Shown: piece by piece, positions 1 to 35,529 of the stretch
Numbering within the stretch: the first letter of the stretch is position 1
Layout of the letters: the number at the start of each line of letters is the position of its first letter
Assembly: GCA_027064095.1 (NCBI GenBank)
Contig: JAMOQI010000058.1
Coordinates: 1 to 37,535, forward strand
DNA: 37,535 nt
Origin: Bacteroidales bacterium
GTDB lineage: Bacteria; Bacteroidota; Bacteroidia; Bacteroidales; UBA1556
Direction of reading: 5' to 3'
Notes under the pieces: generated by a model
What the model saw: only the letters and a program-made list of their open reading frames with translations
Database searches by the model: none
Told to the model about the DNA's origin: nothing
Program-made: the position numbers and the translations under genes

Positions 1-2513
1 GTTCCGAATGGTCATTTACCACTGCAGTTACACAATCTGCTACAACACAAACAGCTCCATGGAGTGATGATTTTTCTACACATAGTGGAGGCGCCGGTAC
101 AACCACAAACGGCTGGGTAACCAATCCTACTACAGGATTTGATTGGCAAGTTTCAACCGATGGAACTACACCTTCAGGCAGTACAGGGCCTTCTGCTGAT
201 AATACGGGTGATGATCATTTTATTTTCACCGAAGCAACCGGCAGCTCAGCCGGTGATGTGGCATATTTGTATTCTCCCAAGTTAGACCTTACGGCTCTAA
301 CATCCCCTGAATTATCTTTCTACTATCATATGTATGGTTCCGATATGGGCGACTTACATATTGATGTATATAATGGATCTTCATACACTAATGATGTTGC
401 AGCCGCTATTTCAGGACAACAACAAACATCTCAAAGCGATTCGTGGTTAAAATATACGGTGAATTTATCATCATATTCAGGTACAATTCATATAAGATTT
501 AGAGGTGTTAGAGGTAGTGGATATACGAGCGATATGTCCATTGATGATTTTAATATTCATGAAACTCCGGCATGTCCTGACCCATCAGCACAAACAGAAA
601 CAAATATTACTACTTCATCTGTTGATTTAGGTTGGACAGAAAACGGCACCGCCACTACCTGGAACATTGAATATGGTCCTGCCGGTTTTACACAAGGCGA
701 CGGTAGCAGTACAACGATAACAGGAACAACAACAAATCCTCATTCTTTAACCGGTTTGTCTGCCGCTACCGATTATGATTGGTATGTACAAGCCGATTGC
801 GGTAGTGGTAGCACCAGCTCTTGGGTTGGACCGAGTAGTTTTACAACTGCAAAATATTCAACCGTTACTAATGGAAAAACAACTAAATGTTCACCTTTAT
901 GGGCCAGATCCGGTTCTACTGCAAGCTATTTCTATGATAAATATAGTTTTACGGTTCCCTCTTCCGGTAATTATGATATAACAGGTGATTGGAGACAGAG
1001 TGGCGGAAGTGATTTTGACGGTTATCTATATTTGTATGAAAACAGTTTTGACCCCGATAATCCAACTACTAACAGATTGGCATACGATGATGATTATGAC
1101 GTTGGAGGAGGAGGTACATCCGGTTCCAAGATAGAAAACCAGAGTCTTTCCAGTGGTACTACATATATTGTTGTAGGAACAACTTATGGTGCAAATAATT
1201 TGGGTGGAGATATGGAATTTACAATAGAGGGTCCGGCTTCGGCGACGGCAAATGCTACAGCTGATTATAACGGGGTACCATCGGGTTATACACATAATCC
1301 GCCTTCAACAGATGGTACTACCCGCACTGCAACCTATTCTTGTGATGATGAAAACAGTGTGACTCATTATTATTATGACAATGGTACCTCTACTAATTAT
1401 AGTGATGATGAATTACTCCTCTCCATCAATAAAAATGGTGAAGATATTGGAACTATTGGAGATGGAACATTCTCTTTAATCTTAGATGGAAATGCAGGAG
1501 TAAGCCATATTACCAATCCCCCGGCTGATTACGTATCCTCTTTTCATGGATGGTATGTTTTTAACAGATATTGGAAAGTTACACCAACATCTCAACCTTC
1601 ATCAGGAGTTAATGTAATATTTTACTATGAAACAGCAGATTTTACTGCATTACAAGATGCTCTAACTGATGCTGGATATTCAGCTCCAAGCAATCATACG
1701 GATATGTACACATTCAAAATTAATAATGTTACAAGTACTTATGATCCAAATCCTGCAAATGGCCATGATGGAGTCCCATTGGCATCTTCAAATGGTACTG
1801 ACGGTTGTTGGATATTCAGTAACGATACAAGAGCATCAACCAGTAAATGGGAATATTCCAACTTGGGTGACGATATTCACTCTATGGAGACTGTTGTGAC
1901 TCATTTCAGTGGTGGTGGTGGTGGTTCCGGTGATACTGGCGACGATGGTAGTGGCAGCCCATTACCTATGGAACTAATAAGTATTAGCGGTAAAAACTTA
2001 TTAAATTATAATTTAATTAATTGGACAACTGCTTCTGAAACTAATACCATGCAATTTATTTTAGAGAGATCTGTTAATTTGAAAAATGATGTAAAAGTTA
2101 TTGGCAAAGTAACCGCAGCAGGTAATTCTAATACATTGCTTAATTATGAAATAAAGGATATGAATCCTATTCCAAAGGCTTATTATCGTATTAGATCCAT
2201 TGATTTTGATGGAAAACAACAAATATCACAATGGATATATTTAGATAGAAATAGTGATAAACTAGAAATAGTAAATCTTTATCCTAACCCTGCAGTAAAT
2301 ACTATTAACATAGAATTGATGAGCCCTTCAATAGATAATGGTAAAATTGAGATTAGGGATATAGTTGGCAGAGTGCTATACGATCAAGAAGTAAGTTTTT
2401 ATAGTGGTAGTCAGACACTTGAATTAGATATTTCACAATTTGATAAAGGCACATATTATTTTATTGTTGAGAATGACGGCGTCAGAATAACACGATTGTT
2501 TGTAAGGCAATAG
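1..2513 (+). CDS. Secreted multidomain T9SS protein (MAM, Fn3, pre-peptidase C-terminal-like, type A sorting domain), 5' end missing
   Basis: The frame is open from base 3, so the gene begins before the window; the GTG at 258 lies inside a domain and is not the start. The first residues (EWSFTTA) look like the end of a fibronectin III domain. A MAM-like domain follows (about 60-560, DDFSTHSGG to IDDFNIHE), then a fibronectin III domain (about 565-855, ending SSFTTA), a pre-peptidase C-terminal-like beta domain (about 860-1235, DGYLYLYE, aspartate-rich), a beta-rich stretch of about 220 residues I cannot assign (1240-1910), a Gly/Asp/Ser linker, and the common Bacteroidota tail with LPMELISISG, WTTASETN and YYRIRSIDFDG. 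It ends with a type A sorting domain (LYPNPAVNTINIEL to the terminal LFVRQ). Such proteins are exported by Sec and T9SS and end up at the cell surface or outside. No catalytic domain is visible in the part present. The stop is followed by a strong terminator. Confidence 0.9.
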   Translation, partial: SEWSFTTAVTQSATTQTAPWSDDFSTHSGGAGTTTNGWVTNPTTGFDWQVSTDGTTPSGSTGPSADNTGDDHFIFTEATGSSAGDVAYLYSPKLDLTALTSPELSFYYHMYGSDMGDLHIDVYNGSSYTNDVAAAISGQQQTSQSDSWLKYTVNLSSYSGTIHIRFRGVRGSGYTSDMSIDDFNIHETPACPDPSAQTETNITTSSVDLGWTENGTATTWNIEYGPAGFTQGDGSSTTITGTTTNPHSLTGLSAATDYDWYVQADCGSGSTSSWVGPSSFTTAKYSTVTNGKTTKCSPLWARSGSTASYFYDKYSFTVPSSGNYDITGDWRQSGGSDFDGYLYLYENSFDPDNPTTNRLAYDDDYDVGGGGTSGSKIENQSLSSGTTYIVVGTTYGANNLGGDMEFTIEGPASATANATADYNGVPSGYTHNPPSTDGTTRTATYSCDDENSVTHYYYDNGTSTNYSDDELLLSINKNGEDIGTIGDGTFSLILDGNAGVSHITNPPADYVSSFHGWYVFNRYWKVTPTSQPSSGVNVIFYYETADFTALQDALTDAGYSAPSNHTDMYTFKINNVTSTYDPNPANGHDGVPLASSNGTDGCWIFSNDTRASTSKWEYSNLGDDIHSMETVVTHFSGGGGGSGDTGDDGSGSPLPMELISISGKNLLNYNLINWTTASETNTMQFILERSVNLKNDVKVIGKVTAAGNSNTLLNYEIKDMNPIPKAYYRIRSIDFDGKQQISQWIYLDRNSDKLEIVNLYPNPAVNTINIELMSPSIDNGKIEIRDIVGRVLYDQEVSFYSGSQTLELDISQFDKGTYYFIVENDGVRITRLFVRQ

Positions 2514-6917: not shown

Positions 6918-9158
6918 ATGAAACAAACATTACTAGACAAATTTATGAGCAAAAAAGGACTCTATACGAGTTTTTGGTTCATAGCTATTATTATGGTAGC
7001 GGCTTTGATTTATTTCACAGCCAATCTACAAAAGGAAGTTCCACCTATTGCAAAAGAAGTAAAATCACAATCAGGAGAAGTGCTTTACACTTACGATGAC
7101 GTAGTAGAAGGTAAGGGATACTTCCAAGAGTTTGACCTTATGGATTGGGGAACATTGTTAGGAATGGGTGCCTATATGGGTCCAGATTTCTCCACTGATT
7201 TTTTCCATCACCGTGCAGAATTTCTTTACGATTACTATGCTAAAGAAATGTTTGGCAAGCCAAATAAAGACTTGACAAATATTGAAAGAGGAGCTGTAAA
7301 AGAAAGAGTAAAGAAAGATTTTCATGAACAAACAAAGCTTTTAGAAGCAGGTGTAACTTATACCGATGCTTCTGCTTTAGCTTATCATGCAAACGTAAAA
7401 GCACTAACAAAATTACTAGTAGAAGGAGATCCCGAAAGAGCATTTCCAGGAGGTGTCATTCATGAAAATGAAGCAATAAAAATTGCTGCATTTGTAGATT
7501 GGTCACAAATGGTAGCTTCTTCTATTCGTCCTGGTACTGAAGGTAAAGTTGGAGAAGAGCGTACATGGTCAAATAACTGGCCTAAAGAACCATTAGTTGA
7601 TCAAGATACATCATATAATAATCATATAGTATCACTATGGGAATTCTTACTATTATGGGCTTTAACTATTCTTGTCATATTTCTTAGCTATGAATATTTA
7701 TTTAAAAAAGATAAAGGAGAAGAATTGGCTCCAGTGTTAAAAGTTACTAAACTTTTTAAATCACAAAAGAAACTTTTAAAATATATCCCTATCGTATCCT
7801 TACTATTTGTTGTACAGATGTTTTTGGGTGGATATATAGCACACTTATACGCTGATCCAACACAAGATTTTATTTTTCCACAAAGCATATTACCATTTAA
7901 CGTATTACGTTCTATTCATACACAGTTAGCTATATTATGGGTAGCAGTAGGTTGGTTAGTTGGTGGTTTATTAATTGCACCTTGGGTTGCTAATAAAGAC
8001 CACAAATTCCCATGGTTAGTAGATGTACTTTGGTTAGCATTAGTAACAGTTGCAGTTGGCTCTGTAATAGGACTTTATATGGGAGCAACAGGACAAATGC
8101 GTGATACATGGTTCTGGTTAGGAAACGAAGGTAGAGAATTACTAAACCTAGGTAGAGTATGGGATATTGGTCTTCTAATAGGCCTAGTATTTTGGTTCTT
8201 ACTTGTCGTATCTCTTATTAAAAAATCAGCCACAAATAACCCTCTTGTAGGAACAATTATTTGGTCTGCTTTTGGTATTGCCACTTTATATATTGCAGGG
8301 ATGATGCCTATTCATAAAATTATGCCTAACTTTACTGTTGATGATTATTATCGTTGGTGGGTAATTCATTTATGGGTAGAATTAACATTCGAACTATTTG
8401 CAGCTGGGGTAATAGCATTTATGACTGTTTCTTTAGGATTGATATCTCAGAAAACAGCAGAAAGAGTTATGTTTTTCGAGCTATTTTTAATAATGATGTC
8501 AGGAACATTAGGTGTAGGCCACCATTACTTCTGGCAAGGATTGGATGAATACTGGATTGCGATAGGAGGTATTTTCTCTGCACTTGAACCACTACCACTA
8601 GCATTAATGATAGTAGAAGCATGGAAAAATCACCGTGAACAAAAAGCTGAGGGTGTTACCAACAAATTTAGTACTCCATTCATGTGGATTACCGGTTCTG
8701 CTGTTCTTAACTGGATAGGTGCCGGATTCTTTGGTATGGTAATAAATACTCCAACAATTTCTTATTATTCTCACGGTACATATTTAATTATGCCTCACGC
8801 TCACACAGCCTTATTAGGAGCCTTTGGATATATTTCTATCGCATTCCTATATATGACTTCTCGTGCAAATGCTATGGCTAATGGCTGGGAATGGAATGAT
8901 AAATTAAGTAAATTTGGTTTCTGGTCCCTAACTATAGGAGTTCTTTTATTTGCTCTTCCTACTTTAATGATAGGTTTAGAACAAACAAAAATTGCTGCCG
9001 AAATGGGTTATTATTATACTCGTATTCATTCAGCACTAGAAATTGTTAAAAGCTGGATGTGGTTCCGTATTATACCAGATACTCTAATGCTTATTGGAGG
9101 AGTTACTGTCTTTATCGATCTAACAAAGAAAACATTCTTTGGAAAAAAAGCAGCATAA
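6918..9158 (+). CDS. norB: Quinol-dependent nitric oxide reductase (qNOR)
   Basis: A 746-residue membrane protein of the heme-copper oxidase superfamily that reduces two NO to N2O using quinol. The qNOR layout is visible: one N-terminal helix (about 15-36), a roughly 200-residue periplasmic domain, then some 13 helices. Metal ligands are all in place: H334 (low-spin heme b, SIHTQLAILW), H484 and E488 (HLWVE, FeB His and the nearby Glu), H535-H536 (GVGHHYFWQG, FeB), H627 and H629 (MPHAHT, the two hemes). There is no CxxCH heme c site and I see no Cys at all, which fits the single-subunit quinol form and not cNOR, which needs NorC. The gene follows the Rrf2 regulator by 98 bp, with an inverted repeat in its leader, and ends in a strong terminator. 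Its role is NO detoxification or respiration in the inner membrane. Confidence 0.96.
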   Translation: MKQTLLDKFMSKKGLYTSFWFIAIIMVAALIYFTANLQKEVPPIAKEVKSQSGEVLYTYDDVVEGKGYFQEFDLMDWGTLLGMGAYMGPDFSTDFFHHRAEFLYDYYAKEMFGKPNKDLTNIERGAVKERVKKDFHEQTKLLEAGVTYTDASALAYHANVKALTKLLVEGDPERAFPGGVIHENEAIKIAAFVDWSQMVASSIRPGTEGKVGEERTWSNNWPKEPLVDQDTSYNNHIVSLWEFLLLWALTILVIFLSYEYLFKKDKGEELAPVLKVTKLFKSQKKLLKYIPIVSLLFVVQMFLGGYIAHLYADPTQDFIFPQSILPFNVLRSIHTQLAILWVAVGWLVGGLLIAPWVANKDHKFPWLVDVLWLALVTVAVGSVIGLYMGATGQMRDTWFWLGNEGRELLNLGRVWDIGLLIGLVFWFLLVVSLIKKSATNNPLVGTIIWSAFGIATLYIAGMMPIHKIMPNFTVDDYYRWWVIHLWVELTFELFAAGVIAFMTVSLGLISQKTAERVMFFELFLIMMSGTLGVGHHYFWQGLDEYWIAIGGIFSALEPLPLALMIVEAWKNHREQKAEGVTNKFSTPFMWITGSAVLNWIGAGFFGMVINTPTISYYSHGTYLIMPHAHTALLGAFGYISIAFLYMTSRANAMANGWEWNDKLSKFGFWSLTIGVLLFALPTLMIGLEQTKIAAEMGYYYTRIHSALEIVKSWMWFRIIPDTLMLIGGVTVFIDLTKKTFFGKKAA

Positions 9159-19437: not shown

Positions 19438-21552
19438 CTAAAACTTCCACCTCAATTGAACGGTTATTTCACTTTTTATATTACCATTAATTTCTTCTAA
19501 TCCGGAGCTTATTGTTTCTCTATTATTATATATAGTCTGTGAAAACCTGAGCCACATACTAATGGCATTATTGAGTTTATAATTCGCTACAACATAATAC
19601 TTTTGTCCTTTATAGTAATAACCCGGCACAGTAAACCTGTATAAAACATCATTTTCATATGCATAAATTCTACTATTATAATCATCCGTATTGAAAACTG
19701 CATATCTAAAACTAAATTTCAAAGGTATATTATCTATTGAATATTGTACATCTTGATAAAGCAAATACCCCTTACTAATAACCAAAGCCTCCTGGTCATA
19801 ACTAGCAAAACTCAAGCGAGATTGTAAACGCAATTGATGACTAAGTTTATAATTAAGATGGAAACGTATATTATGTCGTTTTTTAGACGAAACAAATGTA
19901 ATTGGCGCTGTGTCGTCGGTTAGATTAATAGCCTTATCTTCAAATTGATATCTAAAATAATAGCTAAAGTGTCTGCTAGGTCTTCTCTCATATTGCATAC
20001 TAAATTCGTTCCCACGTGAGGGTGAGTTAACTCTATATCTCAACCATGGAAACCTGAATATATCATAATAGAATCTAATATCAGACTTAGTACCAAGATG
20101 TAAAAGTACTCCCAAATAAACACCTTCTTCGTTTTGAGCTTTACCTCCTTCAGAAATTGGAATTGCATAGAAGGCTTGATAATTTTTTTGAAAATTTCTA
20201 TAATAAAGCGAAAATGTTAAGCGAGGGTGTAGATTAAAAATAGAGCCAATTAAAACAGCTTTTCCACCATTAGCGCTCATTGCAGCTTCGCCAAATAAAC
20301 TCAAATATTTATTCGCATAAGACATATCAAAACCCATATTAAAGTTTTCTTTTCCCTGAAAATCATAATACTGATATGGTGCTATATCCTTGTATAATTC
20401 TTTATCATAGATAGTTTTATAAGCAGTAAAACCTGCTCTTAGTCCGTGGTGTTTGTATGTAATATTTGAACCTATTATTTGTTCGTTAACAGCATTCTTT
20501 TTAACAACCTCGTTAGGAGTTCTGTGCAATCCACTCTCTTGAATTCCTGAAAAGACTAAATCCTCCGAGGAAGATGTATCTCTAATATCTAAACCGGCAT
20601 CTAAACCTTTATTTGAATAAAACACTGTAAGATCCAGTTCTTTAAAAAACTGATATGTGGCTGCTGCTCCTCTAAAGAACAACACTTCATTTGCTGAAGT
20701 ATTTGCTCTTAAGCCTCTCGCTTGACGTTGAATATTAATAGCCATAACAGATTTACCAAAACCTAAGCCTGACCACATCGTTAAGCCTTGACCAAATTCC
20801 AAATGATAATCACCTATGGCAAGAGCTCTTAAGTTTCCTTGATTTTTTAAAAAGAAATGAGCCGAGTAAAAATCAAAACCATGAGAATTATTACCTGAAA
20901 AGAATTCTTCTCCAGCATCTTTATCGCCCAAAATGCCGAAACTAAGCCTGTCTCTGTAAGAATACTTATATCTAAAATAAATCTTATTTTTATTTCCTAA
21001 GTAACGAGAATTAGGATGTTTTGCAAGAGTAGAATCGTCTATAGGCAAATATCCTTCCTGTTGTTCAAGAACTCTACCATAACGCAACAGAACCTGATTC
21101 TTTCCATATTTTAGCATATTAGAAAGCTTTAAAGGCATGGGCTTTGATTCTTTCTCAAAGGTAATAAATGGTTGTATTGCTAAAATAAGATTCACATAAA
21201 AACCATCCAAATCTTTTAGCTCGTATATTGTACTAAAACCTCTGTTTTTTGAACGCGCATCAATTAGTACAGCAATCTGATTGTCATTAAGAAACATTAG
21301 CTCTCGTAATTCTTCTGATGTAGCAGTATTAATATTTATTGGATGTTCGTATAATTCGAGAAAATGATCGTATAATTCTGAAAAGTCAAATTCGGCATTC
21401 GTTCTGGCAGAAAGCTCTTCAATACGTTGTTCTATAACTTTTTTTGCATCATCATCACTATACTGACCATAAGAATAACTATATACAATGCTAAGCAAGA
21501 CTGTAAGCAATAGCTTATTTACAAACGTAAATGATGTGAAAAAATATCTCAT
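19438..21552 (-). CDS. Helix-hairpin-helix / outer-membrane beta-barrel protein
   Basis: A 704-residue exported protein. A signal peptide ends at YSYG with Gln next (mature QYSDDD). Residues about 72-135 are a ComEA-like helix-hairpin-helix region (PININTATSEELREL, then RSKNRGFSTIYELKDL). The first hairpin reads FLND where DNA-binding copies have Pro-Gly-Ile-Gly, so classical DNA binding is doubtful. From about 155 onward it is rich in alternating aromatic strands (QVLLRYGRVL; KIYFRYKYSYRDRLSFGILGD; FSMQYERRPSRHFSYYFRYQFE) and ends in Trp-Lys-Phe, as expected for an outer-membrane barrel. Proteins of this layout are widespread in Bacteroidota with no known function. It follows the PorV/PorQ-like gene by 3 bp and is surely cotranscribed with it. 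Confidence 0.8.
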   Translation of the reverse strand: MRYFFTSFTFVNKLLLTVLLSIVYSYSYGQYSDDDAKKVIEQRIEELSARTNAEFDFSELYDHFLELYEHPININTATSEELRELMFLNDNQIAVLIDARSKNRGFSTIYELKDLDGFYVNLILAIQPFITFEKESKPMPLKLSNMLKYGKNQVLLRYGRVLEQQEGYLPIDDSTLAKHPNSRYLGNKNKIYFRYKYSYRDRLSFGILGDKDAGEEFFSGNNSHGFDFYSAHFFLKNQGNLRALAIGDYHLEFGQGLTMWSGLGFGKSVMAINIQRQARGLRANTSANEVLFFRGAAATYQFFKELDLTVFYSNKGLDAGLDIRDTSSSEDLVFSGIQESGLHRTPNEVVKKNAVNEQIIGSNITYKHHGLRAGFTAYKTIYDKELYKDIAPYQYYDFQGKENFNMGFDMSYANKYLSLFGEAAMSANGGKAVLIGSIFNLHPRLTFSLYYRNFQKNYQAFYAIPISEGGKAQNEEGVYLGVLLHLGTKSDIRFYYDIFRFPWLRYRVNSPSRGNEFSMQYERRPSRHFSYYFRYQFEDKAINLTDDTAPITFVSSKKRHNIRFHLNYKLSHQLRLQSRLSFASYDQEALVISKGYLLYQDVQYSIDNIPLKFSFRYAVFNTDDYNSRIYAYENDVLYRFTVPGYYYKGQKYYVVANYKLNNAISMWLRFSQTIYNNRETISSGLEEINGNIKSEITVQLRWKF

Positions 21553-21555
21553 ATC

Positions 21556-22377
21556 TTACTTATCCATTTGGTAAATAAGTGATAGCTGTGGAGAATATCC
21601 AAGAGTTTGATGCATCGATGAACTAAAATCAATTCTGAAAGCTTTCATCTGCAAACCTACACCAAAACTAAAAATAGAAGGATTATTACTTATTCCAATT
21701 CTGGTATAAAGAATGTCCCTTATACGATATTCTAATCCTCCACACATTACAATTTTATTATCAATATCGCTTTGGGCCTCCATTGCAGCAGTGAAATTTT
21801 TATCTAATCTCCATTGCAGACCTATTTTCAACAAAGAAGGTATTTTTTCTCCATTATAATCATTAAGCTTTACTTGTATAGGATTAAATATATGTGCACC
21901 TAAAGTCAAATCTTCGCTAACCTTTGCCATTAAACCAATCTCGAAGGTGAATAGTCCAACACTTCCATAATTATTACCTATATTTGTGGTAAGATAATCC
22001 ATCTGAACTCCCAAGGCAAGCCTTTTTGAAAGGAGCAAACCATATGCTAATCCAAATTTCTTTTCATTGTATTGTGAATATCCAAAGTAAGATAAATTTG
22101 CAGAGAATGAACCTTTTTTTGTTGGCACAACCAAACTTAAAGCATTCAGACTTAACTCCTTAGTCATAAACCTGTTTTCATAATAAAAGCCAACTCCAAA
22201 TTGAGAATTGAAACCTAGTGAGGCCTGATTATTAGCAAACGCCCATAGACCAGAAGAGGCAACACCTGTTCCTCCCATTGCAGATTCTGCTGCACCTAAA
22301 TTTGAGGGTATCTTCTGACCGTATATTTCTATACTAGATAAGGTGATGAAAAATATTAATAATAAAGATTTAAACAT
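21556..22377 (-). CDS. PorV/PorQ-like (FadL-fold) outer-membrane protein
   Basis: A 273-residue protein with a signal peptide ending IEIYG and Gln at +1 (mature QKIPSNLG). It carries the N-terminal motif of this group (AAESAMGGTGVASSGLWAFANNQASLG) and then repeated amphipathic strands with Gly turns up to a C-terminal LSLIYQ. PorV and PorQ proteins are outer-membrane partners of T9SS (PorV shuttles cargo), but this one is shorter than the characterised members, so its role may be specific to the barrel protein encoded 3 bp downstream. Only a poor promoter match (CTAAGATA, plus strand 22397-22404) is seen upstream. Confidence 0.75.
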   Translation of the reverse strand: MFKSLLLIFFITLSSIEIYGQKIPSNLGAAESAMGGTGVASSGLWAFANNQASLGFNSQFGVGFYYENRFMTKELSLNALSLVVPTKKGSFSANLSYFGYSQYNEKKFGLAYGLLLSKRLALGVQMDYLTTNIGNNYGSVGLFTFEIGLMAKVSEDLTLGAHIFNPIQVKLNDYNGEKIPSLLKIGLQWRLDKNFTAAMEAQSDIDNKIVMCGGLEYRIRDILYTRIGISNNPSIFSFGVGLQMKAFRIDFSSSMHQTLGYSPQLSLIYQMDK

Positions 22378-22469: not shown

Positions 22470-23495
22470 CTATCTTTCACCATAAACAACAGCTACCATA
22501 GTTTGTCCAACAGCCTTAAGTGTAGATTTTTCTATTACACTCATATCATCACCAATGGTATGCCAATAAGGGAAAAACCCGGAATCTGTATTAGCATCAT
22601 GATGGATAATATCAATTGTTGGAATGTAAGCAAATTTATTTATAAACACGTGATCGTCAAGCACTCCTCCACCATCAATATTTCTAAAATAAGCTTCATA
22701 ACCATTTTGCTGAGCAATTTTCCAGACTTTTTTTAATACACCGGGAGCATAATGCTTTGAATAATATTCTTCTCCAAATATAGCATCTTTGGCACCAACC
22801 ATATCGAGTAGAATCCCATAGCGCGCATCATAACCGGGAATATGTGGATTCTTGGCCCAAAACTGGGCTCCTAAGCCCCATGAGTTTTCTGAATTTATAC
22901 TTGGCTGTTCATCAGCATGTTGCCCATAATCCTCAAGGTCTAAAAGAATAATATCAATACCTATGGCAGGTTTTTTTTTGCTCATCTGACGAGCAAGCTC
23001 CATCAAAATACCAACCCCACTAGCACCATCATTAGCACCATCAATAGGAGTAAAATGATTTTTATTATCAGGGTCATGATCTGCAAATGGACGAGAATCC
23101 CAATGAGAGGCTAATAATATTCTGGCTTCAGATTCAGGATTTATTGCTGCAATGATATTAATTCCATTAAGAATTTTATTGTCAAAACTACGAGATTTAA
23201 ATTTCTGTTCATACACCTTTATTCCTTTCGACTTAAAGAAGTTTACAAAATAAGCCGCACATTCAGCATGAGCCTTCGTTCCCGGAACTCTAGGTCCAAA
23301 AGATACCTGTTTTGCAACATAGTTATAAGCAGAATCGGCATCAAATTCGGGAATATTAATTTCCACCTCTTTCTTCTTTGTATTTCTTTTTACAGATTTT
23401 ACGGTATCATTCTCGCAGGCTTGCATTAACAACACAAAAACAAAAAGAAGAATTATTTTAAAAAATTTATTCATAATCATTAAACTTGAGGTCAT
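22470..23495 (-). CDS. M28-family lipoprotein, glutaminyl cyclase-like
   Basis: A 341-residue protein with a lipoprotein signal (lipobox LMQAC, lipidated C27; the true start may be M8). The M28 zinc fold shows ASHWDSRPFADHDPD (His), DGANDGASGV (Asp), DLEDYG (Glu-Asp) and a late IDIIHHDANTD His. The Glu-Asp pair at the catalytic position and the overall layout resemble the bacterial glutaminyl cyclases of Bacteroidota (for example from Porphyromonas) more than aminopeptidases with Glu-Glu. It would convert N-terminal Gln to pyroglutamate on exported proteins in the periplasm. An M28 aminopeptidase cannot be ruled out. It follows cysS by 18 bp, in the same operon. Confidence 0.8.
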   Translation of the reverse strand: MTSSLMIMNKFFKIILLFVFVLLMQACENDTVKSVKRNTKKKEVEINIPEFDADSAYNYVAKQVSFGPRVPGTKAHAECAAYFVNFFKSKGIKVYEQKFKSRSFDNKILNGINIIAAINPESEARILLASHWDSRPFADHDPDNKNHFTPIDGANDGASGVGILMELARQMSKKKPAIGIDIILLDLEDYGQHADEQPSINSENSWGLGAQFWAKNPHIPGYDARYGILLDMVGAKDAIFGEEYYSKHYAPGVLKKVWKIAQQNGYEAYFRNIDGGGVLDDHVFINKFAYIPTIDIIHHDANTDSGFFPYWHTIGDDMSVIEKSTLKAVGQTMVAVVYGER

Positions 23496-27180: not shown

Positions 27181-30100
27181 CTATCTCAAAAGTGTAACGG
27201 CTCCAGTATATTTTCTTTTTACATTTTTATTATCTGTTATATATAAAGCATAACTATATACATCAGGTTTGCATTCATCTCCTTTTATATCATCAACTCC
27301 CGTCCATGAGCTATAATAATCTTTGGAATGATATACACAACGTCCCCACCGGTTATAGATAAAGATTTCGAATTCTTCTATTCCCTCTTCTGAGAACAGT
27401 GGTCTAAATGTTTCATTGAGACCATCACCATTAGGAGTAAAAGCCATTGGAACAAATATTTTAGGGCCACTTTCTATATCTATTATTGCTGTAGCTGTAT
27501 CATAACAATTATAATCATTACCAACTATTAAACTAGAATGGAAAATTCCCTCCCCTAAATATATATGATAAGGATTACTTTCGTTGCTAATATTATATAT
27601 TCCACTAGCTGATTCTCCAAAATCCCATACTAAATTAGTGTAGTTTTTTGAATAATTATAGAAATTAACAACAGGATGATTGGGATCTGGTTTATTTGTA
27701 TTTACTCTAAAATTAGCATAAGGCTTAGGTAATACTTCCACAAAAGATTTTTTTGTTAAACTCGATGAACATCCAGCAAAAGTTGTTAATTCTAAATTTA
27801 CATCATATGTCCCGGGAACTGAATATACATACGATGGACATTGAAGGTGAGATGTATCGTTATGAGAAAGTGGGTCTCCAAAATTCCACTTATAACTCAT
27901 CATTCCAAAGTTATTATTAATAAAACTAACAGCTGTAGAGTCACAATTATGTTTATTTTTAAGCTCAAAATCAACTATAGGTAACGGGTTCACTTTAACA
28001 TAAACACTATCAGGAAAGGAAGCACAAGCAAAATCTTCAACATATAATTTTACTTTATATTCTCCTGCTTGTGTCCATTTTAGACTTACAGGCCCCATTC
28101 CTCCACCATTAACTATTGGTGAGCCTTCATAACTCCAATGATATATTCCATTACTAGTTGCATTACCATAATAATTTGCTTTAGTAATTTCGTCTTGACA
28201 TATAAAAGTATCTACCAATATATCGCATACCGGCCTCTGATTTACTACAATATAACTTGAGTCATATCCTATACAACCATTTGTATCAGTACCTATTACA
28301 CTAAAGTTTGTACTACTTAATGGCGAGACAATAATAGAGCTTGTTGTTTGCCCGCTATTCCATAGTATATCAGAGAGAGGAATATTTGAACTTACATTTA
28401 ATCCAACTGTATCGTAGGTACATATAATGCTATCAGTACTTGTAATATTTATGATAGGTAAAGGTGCCACCAATACATTTGCTAATGTAGTATTTGAACA
28501 AGAGTTTGTATCAGTTACAGTGACTGTATATGTTGAAGTAGATGTTGGATTAACCATAATGATATCAGAACTATCTCCGGTACTCCATTGAAATTGATTC
28601 ACTGAAGAACTAGAAACAACCTCTAAAATTGCTGTATCTCCTTTACATAGTATCGGTGGAATTATTCCAATTGAAACAAATGGTAAAGGATGTACTGTAA
28701 GATGAACAGTATCTATCTTAATACAAGTATTTGAATCTATTACCATTGCAACATAATCAGTATCTGATGATGGCGCTACTTTAATATGATTAACAGTATC
28801 CCCAACTCCCCATAAATAATTCAAATTGCTATTATTGCTCACTATACTCAAAATAATTGAATCACCATTACAAATCTCTGGATTAGAGGGGACGAATGAA
28901 AACTGAGGAGCTGGGTTAACTGTCACAAATATGGAGTCAAAATTCGAACATCCAATTGTATCAATAGCAGTTAATGAATATAGCATAGAATTTTGCGGAA
29001 AATCTATGATGTAAGAATTATTTGAGCCATTATTCCATTGAAAAGTCAAACTACTATCGCTGTAAACAGCGTTGAGCATTACACTATCATTAGCACATAT
29101 ATTCTTTGAATTATAATTTATAGCTATATTAGGTAAAGCTTGTACATAAATATTTGAATATACTGTATCGCTACAAGAATTAGAATCTTGTACAATCAGA
29201 GAATATATTTGACTTGAGTTTGGATTATCAATAATAGATTGGGAATGAGCGCCTGTTGACCAAGTATATGATAAATTACTGTCACCTATACCAAACAAGC
29301 TTACTGTATCCCCTTGACATATCTTAGTATCAATTGCATTTATTGCAACACTTGGTCTATTATAAACTGTAAACTGTATATTAGTACTATCTTTACAACC
29401 TAACGGAGACAATGCTATAAGTTTAAAATTATTTATTGTGTCTATTAGCGCGCGATAAATATTAGAAGTATCACCATTTTGCCACAAATAAGTAGCTGAT
29501 ATATTCGAACAGCTTGCAACTAAAACAACACTATCTCCTTGGCAGTATTTGTTTTTGTTTGTAGAAATTGTTAAAATAGGCTTTTGTTCTACAATTATCT
29601 TAATACTATCAGTTTTTGCGCAACCATCAGTACTAACACCAGTAACATTATAATATCCTGACACTTGAGGCTTATAATATACAGTGTCTTGCAATGCATT
29701 AGCTAAATATGGTGAAGGATACCATATATAATTATTTGCACCTATGGCATTTACCTCCACAGAATCTCCTTTACATATAATAGTTGAATCAAAATTATAA
29801 TAACTAATTGGCTCTCGTTTCACATCGCATCTTAGTATCGTATCATTTACACATCCTAAGCTATCAATAGCCGAAAGATTGTAAAAAGTATTTGCAATAG
29901 GAAATAATCTCGCATCATTGTTATTAATAACATTTAAATACGGAGAGCCATTCCAATTGTAGGTATTATTACCATTAATATGTATAAACAAAGTATCATG
30001 CGGACAAATAGCTAAATGACTAGGTGTAATATTAAAAGTAGGTAAAGCATAAGCTGTTACATAAACATCTGCGGTATCTCTACACATATTTAAATCATAC

Positions 30101-33100
30101 CCGACAACCTTATACTTTTTTGATATAGTATGAGAAACTTTTAATAATGGATTTGTTGAATTAATATTTGGACTTAACCATTTATAAGTATTTCCACCAC
30201 TGGCAACTAATTGTATGGAATCACCATAGCAAACTCCAGTACTACTACTTGTAAGGCTTATTGGTGGACTATTATACATTGATACAAAAACCGAATCAGA
30301 AGAAATACAAGAATTAGAACTTAATGCTACTACTTTATACCAAGAATTTTGATTAGGTACAGCATATACAACAGAGTCATTTGCATTTATAACTCCATTT
30401 CCCTGCCAAGTAAAACTTGCTCCATTTATAGCTTTAAGCAAAGCAGTATCACCATGGCATATTTGAGGAGTTAAAGCTTGAGCTACCACCGATGAATCCT
30501 TATGAACTACAACATTTACTTGGCTCTCTTTAGAACAACCGGAACCGTATGTTATTGTAACTTTATAATTGGTGCTCTGTAATGGAGAAACAACTAAATT
30601 AGAACTTGTATCTCCAGTGCTCCAATAATATGAATAGACTTGATTTTGAGTTATAGACTTAAGTTCCACACTATCTCCGTAACAAATATGCGGGTTTGTT
30701 GGAATTATAGTTGCTGGCGACCAAGTTACAAAGTCTGCAAATGCTGTATCTTTACATCCATTAGAATCAACTCCAACAACCATATAAGTCATGTTTGTAT
30801 TTGGGAATACAGTAACAGAATCTCCTTGATTAGATGATATTCCTATATTCGGATACCAATAATAATTAGCAGCACCACTAGAAATCAATAATTGTTGACT
30901 ACCAGAACATATATGGCTAAAATTTGGACTCACGCTAACATTAGGTTTAGGATATGTACCTATTGATATAGAAGCTGTATCCTTGCACCCGAGTAGGGTT
31001 TTCCCAACTACGTGATAAGTATTAGGCACATACTGATTTACATTAATGTCATTACCATGTAATACCAGATTACTAGAGTCCGAACTCCAAGTATATAAAA
31101 CAGCGCCACTTGCCTGTAAGCTTACAATATCACCGACACATACAGAACTTTTATCAGACACAACACTTATTATTGGGTTTGGTTCCACTTCAATAAATAT
31201 GGAAGTATCATTAACACAACCATTGGAATTGGTTGATAATAAATGCACTATTGTGCTTTGGGTTGGAATAATAAATATATTAGAATTTACATCACCATTA
31301 CTCCATAAATAAGATACATTATTTGTATTAGAATACGCACTTAACACAACCGTATCCCCTTCACATACTCTTTTTCTTGAACTACTAATAACACTTATTG
31401 GCGAAACTTCAACATTAGTGAATGCTGTATCTGAGCATCCATAATCTGTTTTCCCTATAATTCGATAATTAATTGAAGTATCGGGTTTACATATTACGCT
31501 ATTTCCTTTGTTTGTATCTAGATAAACATCTGGATACCAATTATAAGTAGAAGCACCAATGGCTGTAAGAATAACAGAGTCATTTGGACAGACTTGTGTA
31601 TTGGTAGGATTAATATTTATGTTCGGATATGCATGGACTCCTATTTGGGTGAGAGCGCTATCCTTACAACCATTTAAATTGGTACCTACTACTGTATATA
31701 TCGTTGTTGTGGTTGGACTTACCTTTATTGTTGCATTTGTATTAGAGTTTAATCCTGTATTTGGATACCAGTAATAATACTTAGCTCCCGAAGCTGTAAT
31801 TTCTGCACTATCGCCAATACAAATATGCTGCATTTTATCGCTAACAGTAACTTTCGGTGATTGTCTTACTTGAACTTTTGCAGATAAAGTATCAGAACAA
31901 CCATATGCATTAAATCCTACTACCTTATATTGTATTGTAGTATTAGGCTTTGCAATAACTGAACTTGCAGTACTATCATTAAGAAATTTTCCCGGTAACC
32001 ATTTATATGTTGAAGCCCCCGTGCTACTAATACTTATACTATCTCCTTGACAGATGTCAAAATAATTATTGGAAATATGTATTGCAGCATTAGGTACTAC
32101 TTGTACCTGAATATAAATACTGTCAATGCACCCAAAATTATCCTCTCCTATCAATTGATAAGTAGTAGAAACAGGTGTAGATGTGGTCACCAAACTACCA
32201 GTAGTTCTATCTAAGTAATTAGATGGAGACCACGTATAATATTTAGCTCCGTAGGCTCTTATTTTGGCACTTCCTCCTTTACACACATATACAGGATAAG
32301 GATTTACCATAAGACTGGGTTTACTATAAACAGTTACTGTAATACTCTTATTATTAGTGTATCCAAGATTGTCTGTTACAGTAACAGTATAAGTTGTTGT
32401 TGCATTTGGTTTTACCCATATTCCATTTGTAACTTCTCCCGTATTCCATTGATAATTACATAATACATTGGTTACAGCATCCAGATATGTTGAATCACCT
32501 AAACAAATAGCTCTACGTGATGTAACTATTTTAAGTTGTGGACGTGGATTTACAATTGCTGTATCGTAATTTACACAGCCATTAGCATCTGTTCCTTTAA
32601 TAAAAAAATGGGTTAGTGTATCCGTAGCTGCTGTGAAATAATTAGCTCCGGCCTGTAATATTACGTCTGTTGGGCCCCATAAATAACTTACCCCTCCTGT
32701 TACATTAATATTAAAAGGAGCCATAGGCTGCACTTCTGAATAGTCTGGATAAACAACTATATTTGGTAATGGATTTACAATAATATTTGCACTACTACTA
32801 GCTACAACATTGCAACCATTGGTGTCGTTGCCTATTAATTTAACAATAGTACTTGAACTTGGTGTAATCCTAATAGTATCGATAAGGTTTGAATATGTCA
32901 CTCCTTGAAAATCCCACCAATAATTATCTAAGACCTCGATATTATCACAATATACTTCTGCGGTATCTCCGTAGCAAATAGATTGAGTAGAAGGATATAA
33001 ATTAAAAGTTGGAGGAGAAAATGTATTTATGGTTACACTGTCGGAACGCTGACAACCTAAAGTATCTGTTACTGTCACAACTACCTGTGTTGGCTCAAGA

Positions 33101-35529
33101 ATAGTATAGTCTGTAAAATCACTATTATCTCCATTATTCCAAATATAATTTTGAGAATTTGAATTTGTACTAATGCTCACCATTGCATTTGAACCTTGAC
33201 AAACTATACTATCTATAAGTTTTATTTTGAACTCCGGATAAACATGTACTATTGCATCAATTGTATCGCTACATCCAAACACATCAACTCCTACAACAGA
33301 TACCGTTGTTGTGTTTGATGGCTTAAAATAAATACTGTTTGTATTGTTTGCTAGTATATTTCCATTATGAATCCAATAATAATAATCCGTTCCTGATGCA
33401 TGCAATTTTATTGAATCTCCATAACAAACACCTGATGTATTAGGAAGTTTTATGTTAACATTTGGTTTATTATACACTTCCAGATGTATAGAATCTGTAT
33501 TAGAACATCCTTGAATATTGGTTCCTTTTACATAATAGTCCATACTATTTGAAGGGCTTACATTTATTGATGTACCGCTGTACTGACTATTATTTTGATT
33601 TGACCACCATTGATAATTTATTGCACCACTTGCAGTTAAAGTAGCTGTCATATTTGCACAAATAGTATCATAACTACTTTGAATACTTATTTGTGGTAAT
33701 TGATCTACTAATATTGTCAACTCTATACTATCAACACATGAATAGCTATCGATTCCTTTAACCCAAAAACTATCTGTTTGGTTAGTAAATATATTTACAT
33801 CGCTATAGTTTTGATTATGAGATATAATATCATTATTATTCCATATATATTGACTAGCACCGCTTAAAACAAAATTAGCAGTATCTCCTTCACAAATTGT
33901 ATTTAATGTAGAACTAGATATCAAATTCATAGGTGCATATACTGTAAGATTTTTGGTTGCAGTAGATGTACATCCAAATTGATTTTCTCCAACTACTTTT
34001 ACCAAAGTACTATTGTTTAAAGGAATTAATAAACTATCATTTTGATAATTTTGCACAATCACATTATTCTTATACCAAGTATAATTATTAGCCCCAATAG
34101 CTTTTACTATTGAAGTTTGTCCTTTGCATACACTATCGATAGAAGCTATTAATATTATATTTGGAATTGGATTTACTTCTATATGTTTAGTAGTATTTAT
34201 TGAAAATCCACAACCATCGATTACCATTAAGCTAAGGTTTGTATCTTGTTGTGCTACAAAACCTACATTATTAGAATTCCAACTTAAGTTATATGGTTGT
34301 ATTCCTCCAGAAATAATAGCTGATTGATTAACTTGCTCCTGCTGACAGTAAATCGAATCTCCAAAAATTGATGCAGACAAGGAATTATAATCGCTTAATA
34401 TAAAATTGACAGTATCATTAGTGCATCCAGAAATTGGAATAATACAATTCAAAGTTTCGTCTCCTTCTGCTATATTATCAAGAATAGGAGTAATATATAA
34501 CCTAACGCTATCTGTACCTGCTGGTATGTAAATGCTGTCAGGCAAATTATTTACATCAATACCATTTTGTACTGTACCGGAATAAGAAATAGGAATATAA
34601 TAATCAAAAGATAAAGGACTTGATAAAATAAAATCAATAGCTGCGCTATCACATCCTTCATTAATAATATTGCTCTGAGAGTTATTAAACATAATAACAT
34701 TAGTCCGTAAACCTAAAGAAGAAAAACTATTTGCCTCAAGAAACACACCTGAATCGTAAGAGTGATCTGCACCATCACCTATAGCAATCTTAATATGATA
34801 AGTTTGACATGGAACAACCTTTATTTTAGCAAGCATAACAGTTGTTAAACCATCAAGTTGTATTGTAGTACCTCCTGTATTATCAATATAATAATTACAA
34901 TTTGTACAAGGTCCTAAATTATTAATTCCGTTATTTATAGTATTGGTAGAAATAGGAGTGCTAGTACCTGGTATTAAGGCAATATTTTCATTAATATATT
35001 GACCACCTAGTGGATTTGTACCTGTTATAAAAAAGCCAAAAACATCATTATAATTTGAACCCACCCATTCCGCATATTCTTCAGATCCAAAAACAAATCT
35101 AAACATTACGCTATCAGTTGTTGGAACGAAATCAAATTCTAAAACAGCAGCATCATAAATACTGCTTAAAGGTGTAAGAGCTTGTAATTGTGGATCGCCT
35201 CCTCCTTGAGTGTTATACTGTTTATTTGGAACAGTATTGCTTGATGCTAAATCTGTCACTTTGCCTGTTGACAATACTATCCCTGATGAAAGCCCAAGCA
35301 CACTTGGACCTCCTTGAGAAAAACTTCCTAATGACAAGCTGGAGCCTGTGTAACTAACGTTACTTACAGATACACCATTCCCTAAAAGTACGTTCTCCAC
35401 CAAACTTTGTGGTGTAGATCCGTTTTGAACGACAAATTGTGAATACGAAATTCCAGGATGTAAAATGAGCAATGTTAACACCAAAAATACGAAAACACAC
35501 TTTGCCATTTTCTTATTCTGTGTTTTCAT
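27181..35529 (-). CDS. Giant secreted adhesin-like protein: anchor L domain, about 26 Ig-like repeats, PKD domains, type B T9SS sorting domain
   Basis: A 2782-residue protein. The signal peptide ends SYS with Gln at +1 (QFVVQ). Domains in order: a choice-of-anchor L domain (about 36-280; SSGIVLSTGKV, FVFGSEEYAEWVGSNYNDVFGF), a Calx-beta-like domain (about 290-385; PAGTDSVRLYITPILDN, EGDET), a transitional Cys-containing domain, about 26 Ig-like repeats of roughly 76 residues (about 460-2440), three PKD-like domains (about 2440-2690; WNFGDPLSH, WDFGES) and a gliding-motility type C-terminal domain (FVPMAFTPNGDGLNETFRP, FIYNRWGRCVY, YSYALYITD). The C-terminus is the type B sorting signal for T9SS. 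Such long stalks usually serve attachment or cell-cell contact. No enzyme domain is present. No PorP/SprF-like gene, the usual partner of type B cargo, is adjacent. It ends at its own terminator and appears monocistronic. Confidence 0.93.
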   Translation of the reverse strand: MKTQNKKMAKCVFVFLVLTLLILHPGISYSQFVVQNGSTPQSLVENVLLGNGVSVSNVSYTGSSLSLGSFSQGGPSVLGLSSGIVLSTGKVTDLASSNTVPNKQYNTQGGGDPQLQALTPLSSIYDAAVLEFDFVPTTDSVMFRFVFGSEEYAEWVGSNYNDVFGFFITGTNPLGGQYINENIALIPGTSTPISTNTINNGINNLGPCTNCNYYIDNTGGTTIQLDGLTTVMLAKIKVVPCQTYHIKIAIGDGADHSYDSGVFLEANSFSSLGLRTNVIMFNNSQSNIINEGCDSAAIDFILSSPLSFDYYIPISYSGTVQNGIDVNNLPDSIYIPAGTDSVRLYITPILDNIAEGDETLNCIIPISGCTNDTVNFILSDYNSLSASIFGDSIYCQQEQVNQSAIISGGIQPYNLSWNSNNVGFVAQQDTNLSLMVIDGCGFSINTTKHIEVNPIPNIILIASIDSVCKGQTSIVKAIGANNYTWYKNNVIVQNYQNDSLLIPLNNSTLVKVVGENQFGCTSTATKNLTVYAPMNLISSSTLNTICEGDTANFVLSGASQYIWNNNDIISHNQNYSDVNIFTNQTDSFWVKGIDSYSCVDSIELTILVDQLPQISIQSSYDTICANMTATLTASGAINYQWWSNQNNSQYSGTSINVSPSNSMDYYVKGTNIQGCSNTDSIHLEVYNKPNVNIKLPNTSGVCYGDSIKLHASGTDYYYWIHNGNILANNTNSIYFKPSNTTTVSVVGVDVFGCSDTIDAIVHVYPEFKIKLIDSIVCQGSNAMVSISTNSNSQNYIWNNGDNSDFTDYTILEPTQVVVTVTDTLGCQRSDSVTINTFSPPTFNLYPSTQSICYGDTAEVYCDNIEVLDNYWWDFQGVTYSNLIDTIRITPSSSTIVKLIGNDTNGCNVVASSSANIIVNPLPNIVVYPDYSEVQPMAPFNINVTGGVSYLWGPTDVILQAGANYFTAATDTLTHFFIKGTDANGCVNYDTAIVNPRPQLKIVTSRRAICLGDSTYLDAVTNVLCNYQWNTGEVTNGIWVKPNATTTYTVTVTDNLGYTNNKSITVTVYSKPSLMVNPYPVYVCKGGSAKIRAYGAKYYTWSPSNYLDRTTGSLVTTSTPVSTTYQLIGEDNFGCIDSIYIQVQVVPNAAIHISNNYFDICQGDSISISSTGASTYKWLPGKFLNDSTASSVIAKPNTTIQYKVVGFNAYGCSDTLSAKVQVRQSPKVTVSDKMQHICIGDSAEITASGAKYYYWYPNTGLNSNTNATIKVSPTTTTIYTVVGTNLNGCKDSALTQIGVHAYPNININPTNTQVCPNDSVILTAIGASTYNWYPDVYLDTNKGNSVICKPDTSINYRIIGKTDYGCSDTAFTNVEVSPISVISSSRKRVCEGDTVVLSAYSNTNNVSYLWSNGDVNSNIFIIPTQSTIVHLLSTNSNGCVNDTSIFIEVEPNPIISVVSDKSSVCVGDIVSLQASGAVLYTWSSDSSNLVLHGNDINVNQYVPNTYHVVGKTLLGCKDTASISIGTYPKPNVSVSPNFSHICSGSQQLLISSGAANYYWYPNIGISSNQGDSVTVFPNTNMTYMVVGVDSNGCKDTAFADFVTWSPATIIPTNPHICYGDSVELKSITQNQVYSYYWSTGDTSSNLVVSPLQSTNYKVTITYGSGCSKESQVNVVVHKDSSVVAQALTPQICHGDTALLKAINGASFTWQGNGVINANDSVVYAVPNQNSWYKVVALSSNSCISSDSVFVSMYNSPPISLTSSSTGVCYGDSIQLVASGGNTYKWLSPNINSTNPLLKVSHTISKKYKVVGYDLNMCRDTADVYVTAYALPTFNITPSHLAICPHDTLFIHINGNNTYNWNGSPYLNVINNNDARLFPIANTFYNLSAIDSLGCVNDTILRCDVKREPISYYNFDSTIICKGDSVEVNAIGANNYIWYPSPYLANALQDTVYYKPQVSGYYNVTGVSTDGCAKTDSIKIIVEQKPILTISTNKNKYCQGDSVVLVASCSNISATYLWQNGDTSNIYRALIDTINNFKLIALSPLGCKDSTNIQFTVYNRPSVAINAIDTKICQGDTVSLFGIGDSNLSYTWSTGAHSQSIIDNPNSSQIYSLIVQDSNSCSDTVYSNIYVQALPNIAINYNSKNICANDSVMLNAVYSDSSLTFQWNNGSNNSYIIDFPQNSMLYSLTAIDTIGCSNFDSIFVTVNPAPQFSFVPSNPEICNGDSIILSIVSNNSNLNYLWGVGDTVNHIKVAPSSDTDYVAMVIDSNTCIKIDTVHLTVHPLPFVSIGIIPPILCKGDTAILEVVSSSSVNQFQWSTGDSSDIIMVNPTSTSTYTVTVTDTNSCSNTTLANVLVAPLPIINITSTDSIICTYDTVGLNVSSNIPLSDILWNSGQTTSSIIVSPLSSTNFSVIGTDTNGCIGYDSSYIVVNQRPVCDILVDTFICQDEITKANYYGNATSNGIYHWSYEGSPIVNGGGMGPVSLKWTQAGEYKVKLYVEDFACASFPDSVYVKVNPLPIVDFELKNKHNCDSTAVSFINNNFGMMSYKWNFGDPLSHNDTSHLQCPSYVYSVPGTYDVNLELTTFAGCSSSLTKKSFVEVLPKPYANFRVNTNKPDPNHPVVNFYNYSKNYTNLVWDFGESASGIYNISNESNPYHIYLGEGIFHSSLIVGNDYNCYDTATAIIDIESGPKIFVPMAFTPNGDGLNETFRPLFSEEGIEEFEIFIYNRWGRCVYHSKDYYSSWTGVDDIKGDECKPDVYSYALYITDNKNVKRKYTGAVTLLR
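28216..34150 (-). repeat. Coding tandem repeats: about 26 Ig-like units of ~228 bp
   Basis: Counting by hand, 26 successive units share the core C-x-G-D-(S/T) near the start, an aromatic-x-W about 15 residues later, Y-x-V-x-G/T before a second Cys in an N/D-x-x-G-C-x-D context. The two Cys are about 50-55 residues apart, as for an intradomain disulfide. At DNA level the units are clearly diverged, with no long identical stretches noticed, so the array is old or under selection for protein sequence. Confidence 0.85.

Follow-up and report, generated by a model that had tools for sequence, protein, structure and literature searches.

The window, a 37,535-nt stretch of a Bacteroidales contig, carries on its minus strand two adjacent genes for predicted outer membrane proteins, a small PorV-like barrel and a large barrel preceded by a helix-hairpin-helix (HHH) domain (Table 1). 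They had been annotated as 3 bp apart, and both open reading frames were recovered with that spacing. Upstream of the pair lies a gene of the M28 peptidase family, the sequence of which suggests that it may encode an enzyme like the glutaminyl cyclase of the Bacteroidetes Q-rule. A cysS-like gene, named from a reading of its translation, pheS and a cyclophilin gene also lie upstream, while kdtA and then pcrA follow the HHH-barrel gene after 612 bp. Elsewhere in the window are two type IX secretion system (T9SS) cargo proteins, a 751-aa ORF with MAM/fn3 domains and a Type A sorting domain (258-2513, plus strand) and a 2782-aa ORF with choice-of-anchor L, Ig_7, PKD and Type B (CHU_C) sorting domains (27181-35529, minus strand). 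A NorB-type nitric oxide reductase with a fused cytochrome c-like domain is encoded at 6918-9158 (plus strand). A contig-level search for related loci returned one relative, a Bacteroidales MAG with 73% identity. A scan for promoters and terminators gave results close to those from shuffled sequences.

Table 1. Features of the gene pair and its upstream neighbor, in window coordinates.
Feature	Position	Strand	Basis
273-aa PorV/FadL-like outer membrane barrel with 14 strands (first in the pair)	21556..22377	-	ORF, profile, AlphaFold2, fold match
704-aa protein with an HHH domain and a barrel of ~24 strands (second in the pair)	19438..21552	-	ORF, Pfam, AlphaFold2, fold match
HHH_3 domain whose first hairpin is non-canonical (residues 87-89 read Phe-Leu-Asn, not Gly-Ile-Gly)	21160..21345	-	Pfam hit and family columns
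3-bp gap between the PorV-like gene and the HHH-barrel gene	21553..21555	-	ORF coordinates
Upstream gene of the M28 peptidase family	22470-23495	-	Pfam

To classify the small protein, profile and structural comparisons were used. AlphaFold2, supplied with 86 sequences, predicted a 14-strand barrel (pLDDT 94.2) that matched FadL in the PDB fold search (Z 32.1). Among its FadL and PorV matches (Z 30-32), PorV of the T9SS translocon gave the lowest rmsd (8gl6_F; Z 31.0, rmsd 1.9 over 252 residues, 21% identity), and the two PorV chains 8gl6_F and 6h3i_F each align over 251-252 residues at rmsd 1.9 and 21-22% identity. Chains of Bacteroidota BAM complexes come next (Z 26-27). A phmmer search against PDB sequences found no match. 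The NCBIfam model PorV_fam (NF033709) scored 69.8 bits (E 2.9e-19), below its curated cut-off of 90 bits, and matched 73/86 relatives of the small protein at E <=0.001. The first-pass annotation "PorV/PorQ-like" stands for fold and family but fails at the level of equivalogs, for which the small protein reached 27.8 bits with PorV (NF033710, cut-off 250) and 22.2 bits with PorQ (cut-off 220). Like PorV it is a FadL-like barrel with N-terminal helices whose family co-occurs with SprA; it differs in being shorter (PorV chains have 345-367 residues), in falling far below the PorV cut-off, and in having its own pairing with the HHH-barrel. In one genome (G177, L230:6560-9340) the open frame of the PorV-like gene is extended N-terminally by about 660 residues that have no Pfam match.

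The large protein matches Pfam HHH_3 at residues 70-131 (32.2 bits, E 1.2e-7, cut-off 27 bits), which identifies a ComEA-type HHH domain; the comE subfamily model gave 19.1 bits against a cut-off of 152. In the AlphaFold2 model (90 sequences, pLDDT 92.5, pTM 0.89) helices lie within residues 1-150, reaching to residue 149, and 24 strands of at least 9 residues, counted from the DSSP string, follow within 151-703. An HHH region in front of a large barrel, as first annotated, is thus what the model predicts, and structure prediction returned both of the barrels on which that annotation depended (pLDDT 94 and 92). The Foldseek search placed MtrB first (TM 0.39-0.42), and FimD chains aligned over 366-380 residues of the region 132/139-704 (rmsd 3.8-4.4, Z 13-15); AlgE and Wzi are among many other barrels in the list of structural neighbors. 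MtrB and FimD-type ushers resemble the large protein in barrel size, but TM is about 0.4 or less, identity is 9-11% and no common accessory domains were seen. The PDB fold search thus gave no close match for the large barrel, a result that does not make the fold new, and phmmer against PDB sequences found only HHH-type matches (E 0.18 and 0.56). The annotated records of Parabacteroides distasonis and Bacteroides finegoldii call the large protein only "helix-hairpin-helix domain-containing protein".

Because the hairpin had been noted to lack Gly-Ile-Gly, the corresponding family columns were examined by matching, by eye, the ComEA-like consensus LxGIG to the barrel consensus. Glycine occurs in 4/118 rows at residue 87 and in 0/121 at residue 89. 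Most members have Phe/Leu-Leu-Asn/Ser where the ComEA-like alignment has Gly-Ile-Gly, and Asn75 (120/122) and Glu111 (119/122) are nearly fixed. Since the change is shared across the family and these two residues are nearly invariant, the altered hairpin is an established feature of the family and not the product of decay. An accident of this particular genome is ruled out by the family-wide loss of Gly-x-Gly. The large protein resembles ComEA in its HHH_3 domain, but ComEA is short, and free or anchored in the periplasm, whereas here an HHH lacking Gly-x-Gly sits before a large barrel in a 704-aa protein. Furthermore, the genome encodes a separate, membrane-anchored ComEA-like protein (C32:92817-93728) with three HHH motifs, one of which has the Gly-Ile-Gly hairpin.

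Conservation of the pair was examined among 149 Bacteroidales genomes. Single-sequence searches found the large protein in 130/149 and the small protein in 114/149. Loci were fetched for 123 of the 130, including that of the window, and with one further locus (L006) made 124. Profile search placed a PorV-like gene directly upstream of the barrel gene in 97/124. Of the 27 non-adjacent loci, 4 lie at contig edges and 5 belong to SprA-negative genomes; for 13 the gene was located elsewhere in the same genome (in G123 on a weak match only, 2e-8), and for 5 none was found. Match coordinates are adjacent in 6/7 of the unfetched loci. Outside the order, where 49 loci in 47 genomes were examined, the pair is present in 33/39 SprA-positive and 0/8 SprA-negative genomes. 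Adjacency, proposed in the first-pass annotation as a check on the pair, is thus retained within the order and beyond it, and chance neighborhood was rejected on this ground. It is very improbable that the two genes are mere neighbors with no functional connection. The 13 loci with the PorV-like gene elsewhere would fit such a view, as would five SprA-positive, barrel-bearing genomes that have no detectable partner away from contig edges, but adjacency within a few bases is kept across the families of the phylum while the outer neighbors change (purE upstream in 23 loci, hpt in 22, others elsewhere; names from our own reading of the sequences).

The two members of the pair obey different gene-content rules. 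SprA (TIGR04189) was detected in 140/149 genomes of the order and 154/198 of the phylum sample. By gene content, the PorV-like gene depends on it. Whole-genome profile searches found no PorV-like gene in any of the four SprA-negative, barrel-bearing genomes of the order that are at least 90% complete (G008, G059, G106 and G126) or in the 74%-complete G092; weak matches in these genomes, in frames of 328-445 aa, were read as other members of the superfamily. By comparison, the gene is missing in 5/111 SprA-positive, barrel-positive genomes of the order with the same completeness, 2 of these 5 at contig edges. Fisher tests of PorV-like absence against SprA absence, uncorrected for kinship, gave 5e-6 with 3 such SprA-negative genomes and 3e-5 with 6. 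As is expected of a PorV shuttle, the family occurs in SprA genomes, and the sole SprA-negative genome with a clear PorV-like gene is G127, where the absence of SprA may result from incompleteness (82% complete). Outside the order, a search limited to the locus found the gene at 0/8 SprA-negative loci (G150 and seven of family f135); the three barrel-bearing f120 relatives of G150 do have it. Whole-genome profile search detected no partner in the SprA-positive, barrel-bearing order genomes G023/G137, G079, G087 and G111, and the partner was missing, at the locus only, in 6/39 SprA-positive loci outside the order.

The absence of the PorV-like gene can be seen in the gap between purE and the barrel gene, which is 344 and 24 bp in SprA-negative G106 and G126 and 750-1158 bp in 23 loci with purE upstream. 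In P. distasonis an unnamed 269-aa protein (196 bits with the PorV-like profile) precedes the HHH protein. In B. finegoldii the HHH protein stands without a partner between the same flanking genes (RNA methyltransferase, DUF4294, radical SAM); Bacteroides is not known to have a T9SS. No PorV-like gene adjoins the barrel gene at the loci of Prevotella sp. oral taxon 299 and Phocaeicola massiliensis. Three PLSDB "plasmid" records (L282, L283 and L285, strains TSDC17.2-1.1) carry apparent core genes such as nadA and may be chromosome pieces.

The large barrel does not follow SprA. The 44 SprA-negative genomes of the phylum sample are the 43 of f135, a Chlorobiaceae-like family, and G150 (24 of them identified by subtraction from the barrel-search list), and the large protein is present in 43/43 f135 genomes (best E 1e-61 to 2e-123). 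Conversely, all 19 f123 genomes are SprA-positive without a barrel, their best matches (E 3.7e-10 or worse) being at the level of Tex-like proteins, of which the third HHH_3 match in the window's genome is one. Barrels without SprA in f135, G150 and the order, together with SprA without a barrel in f123, show that the large barrel and the T9SS are separable in both directions. The barrel as a simple T9SS component was therefore rejected. The first-pass suggestion of a secretion or DNA-handling machine thus divides between the two proteins, with type IX secretion tracked by the PorV-like half and not by the barrel half. A related possibility is that the two proteins together serve some type IX cargo as its dedicated exit or anchor, with the barrel as part of secretion. 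The PorV-like fold, the co-occurrence with SprA and the two T9SS cargo proteins in the window speak for it; we consider it improbable given barrels without SprA in 43/43 f135 genomes, G150 and five genomes of the order, and SprA without a barrel in 19/19 f123 genomes.

Two observations hint at DNA handling, a comEC linkage in one family and a partial co-loss with ComEA. In 4/4 barrel-bearing f120 genomes comEC lies directly downstream of the barrel gene, with a gap of -9 to +4 bp. These genes were identified by PF03772 and DUF4131 (194.7 bits in G150, 183.6 in G227) and by similarity in G269 and G285. Among 84 first same-strand genes within 250 bp downstream, from 83 genomes (G150 twice), comEC was found only in the 4 f120 genomes; POT transporters were found in 6. 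An OstA/LptA-like gene lies 1 bp downstream of the barrel gene in two f10 genomes (L025 in G127 and L029 in G009), which would point to lipopolysaccharide transport.

This last linkage bears on the strongest rival, in which the barrel serves envelope biogenesis or general transport, moving a lipid, a glycan, a nutrient or another envelope component; the HHH would bind a periplasmic protein and comEC in f120 would be a chance neighbor. We regard this as a serious possibility, with a chance below even and slightly behind that of the reading favored below. The barrel is widely retained, including in Bacteroides and in SprA-negative Chlorobiaceae-like genomes, kdtA lies downstream in the window, and AlgE and Wzi are among the many structural neighbors. 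However, the OstA-like linkage is likewise confined to two genomes of a single family, and 612 bp separate kdtA from the barrel gene. Barrels of this size match many folds loosely (TM about 0.4), which shows no function, and the partial ComEA co-loss is left unexplained.

That co-loss was examined in genomes of the order at least 90% complete. ComEA is missing in 11/15 barrel-less and 4/115 barrel-bearing genomes, for which a raw Fisher test gave 6e-10. In five genomes (G060, G068, G088, G109 and G142) short frames of 99-133 aa have lost the HHH part and align with the ComEA-like profile in its N-terminal membrane part only; two have an internal stop, and they look like either remnants or a retained small membrane protein. 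A quick ComEC tree of 40/149 genomes, weak and with long branches, gave 5 changes for barrel loss, 4 for ComEA loss and 2 supported independent pairs, in which ComEA changed in the same direction 1.0 and in the opposite direction 0.2 times on average. Co-loss therefore reduces to roughly two events, which do not suffice for a test, and the profile evidence is suggestive only. ComEC is of no use as a competence marker, being found in 140/149 genomes of the order; it is kept in 14/15 barrel-less genomes with a completeness of 90% or more. All Bacteroidia genomes of the phylum sample carry a ComEA-like protein, including barrel-less f123 and f122, and all 19 f123 and both f122 genomes combine ComEA and SprA without the barrel. 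If the barrel is a DNA channel, these two families must use another.

The f135 member G199 is Chlorobaculum-like, encoding an ScpB nearly identical to PDB 1t6s, which we take to be from Chlorobaculum tepidum. C. tepidum has been transformed naturally (PMC3842273). For Porphyromonas gingivalis, the way in which DNA passes this membrane barrier from outside is described as unclear (PMC11532111), and for Riemerella the crossing of the outer membrane is modeled only speculatively (PMC8459023). The same source describes a screen of 3000 R. anatipestifer mutants that yielded other outer membrane candidates, and an HHH protein, RA0C_RS02645, that is essential for transformation. Size and domain make-up suggest that the ComEA-like protein of the window's genome corresponds to RA0C_RS02645. 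The Riemerella candidates RA0C_RS04915/RS04920 are, like the pair described here, an outer membrane protein and a partner, both needed for transformation alongside a separate HHH protein (PMC8459023). RA0C_RS04915 differs from the barrel, on a comparison by description only, in being a CarboxypepD-regulatory-domain protein for which that account reports no HHH, and it is reported there only from Flavobacteriaceae (PMC8459023). If f123 is Flavobacteriaceae, which is our guess, this restriction would fit the use of another channel by f123.

The best explanation is that the pair belongs to an uncharacterized outer membrane complex present across most of the Bacteroidota. We tentatively favor a channel, possibly for DNA entry, with a type IX-dependent PorV-like partner, while putting its chance below even. 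The large barrel would most likely be the substrate channel, with its HHH domain on the periplasmic side, where it would serve for docking or gating instead of gripping DNA in the canonical way. Its favored substrate is DNA entering the periplasm, which would be passed to the separate ComEA-like protein with its Gly-Ile-Gly hairpin and then to ComEC; envelope material is a close second choice. The DNA part is weak because ComEA co-loss comprises about two events, comEC linkage is confined to one family, and a large family has ComEA without the barrel. Retention of the barrel in gut Bacteroides, the HHH without Gly-x-Gly, ComEC retained without the barrel, the OstA/LptA-like neighbor in f10 and the other outer membrane candidates from the R. 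anatipestifer screen also count against DNA. PorV is described as collecting Type A cargo from SprA (PMC12618676). The PorV-like partner may act similarly, as an accessory that would contact the barrel, taking a T9SS-secreted surface protein at SprA and attaching it there. In its fullest form, the HHH-barrel would be the DNA-entry channel of most Bacteroidota including Chlorobiaceae, in place of the pilus secretin of other Gram-negative bacteria, with a PorV-family shuttle tethering a type IX-secreted DNA receptor to it and one large family having replaced the HHH-barrel by another barrel. We think this form unlikely.

No paper on the pair or on an HHH-barrel was found in the open-access literature. 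Within that literature the fold classes are known, and neither the arrangement of an HHH domain with a 24-strand barrel, nor the pairing, nor the gene-content rules were found in print. New here are the different rules that the pair members obey and the position of comEC directly after the large barrel in one family. Natural transformation has been shown in Porphyromonas, Riemerella and the green sulfur bacteria, and the large barrel, conserved, fitted with a ComEA-type domain and in one family followed by comEC, is a concrete candidate for outer membrane DNA entry. Whatever the substrate of the barrel, loss of the PorV-like partner along with SprA, but not of the barrel itself, raises the possibility that proteins of the PorV family connect type IX cargo with other outer membrane machines.
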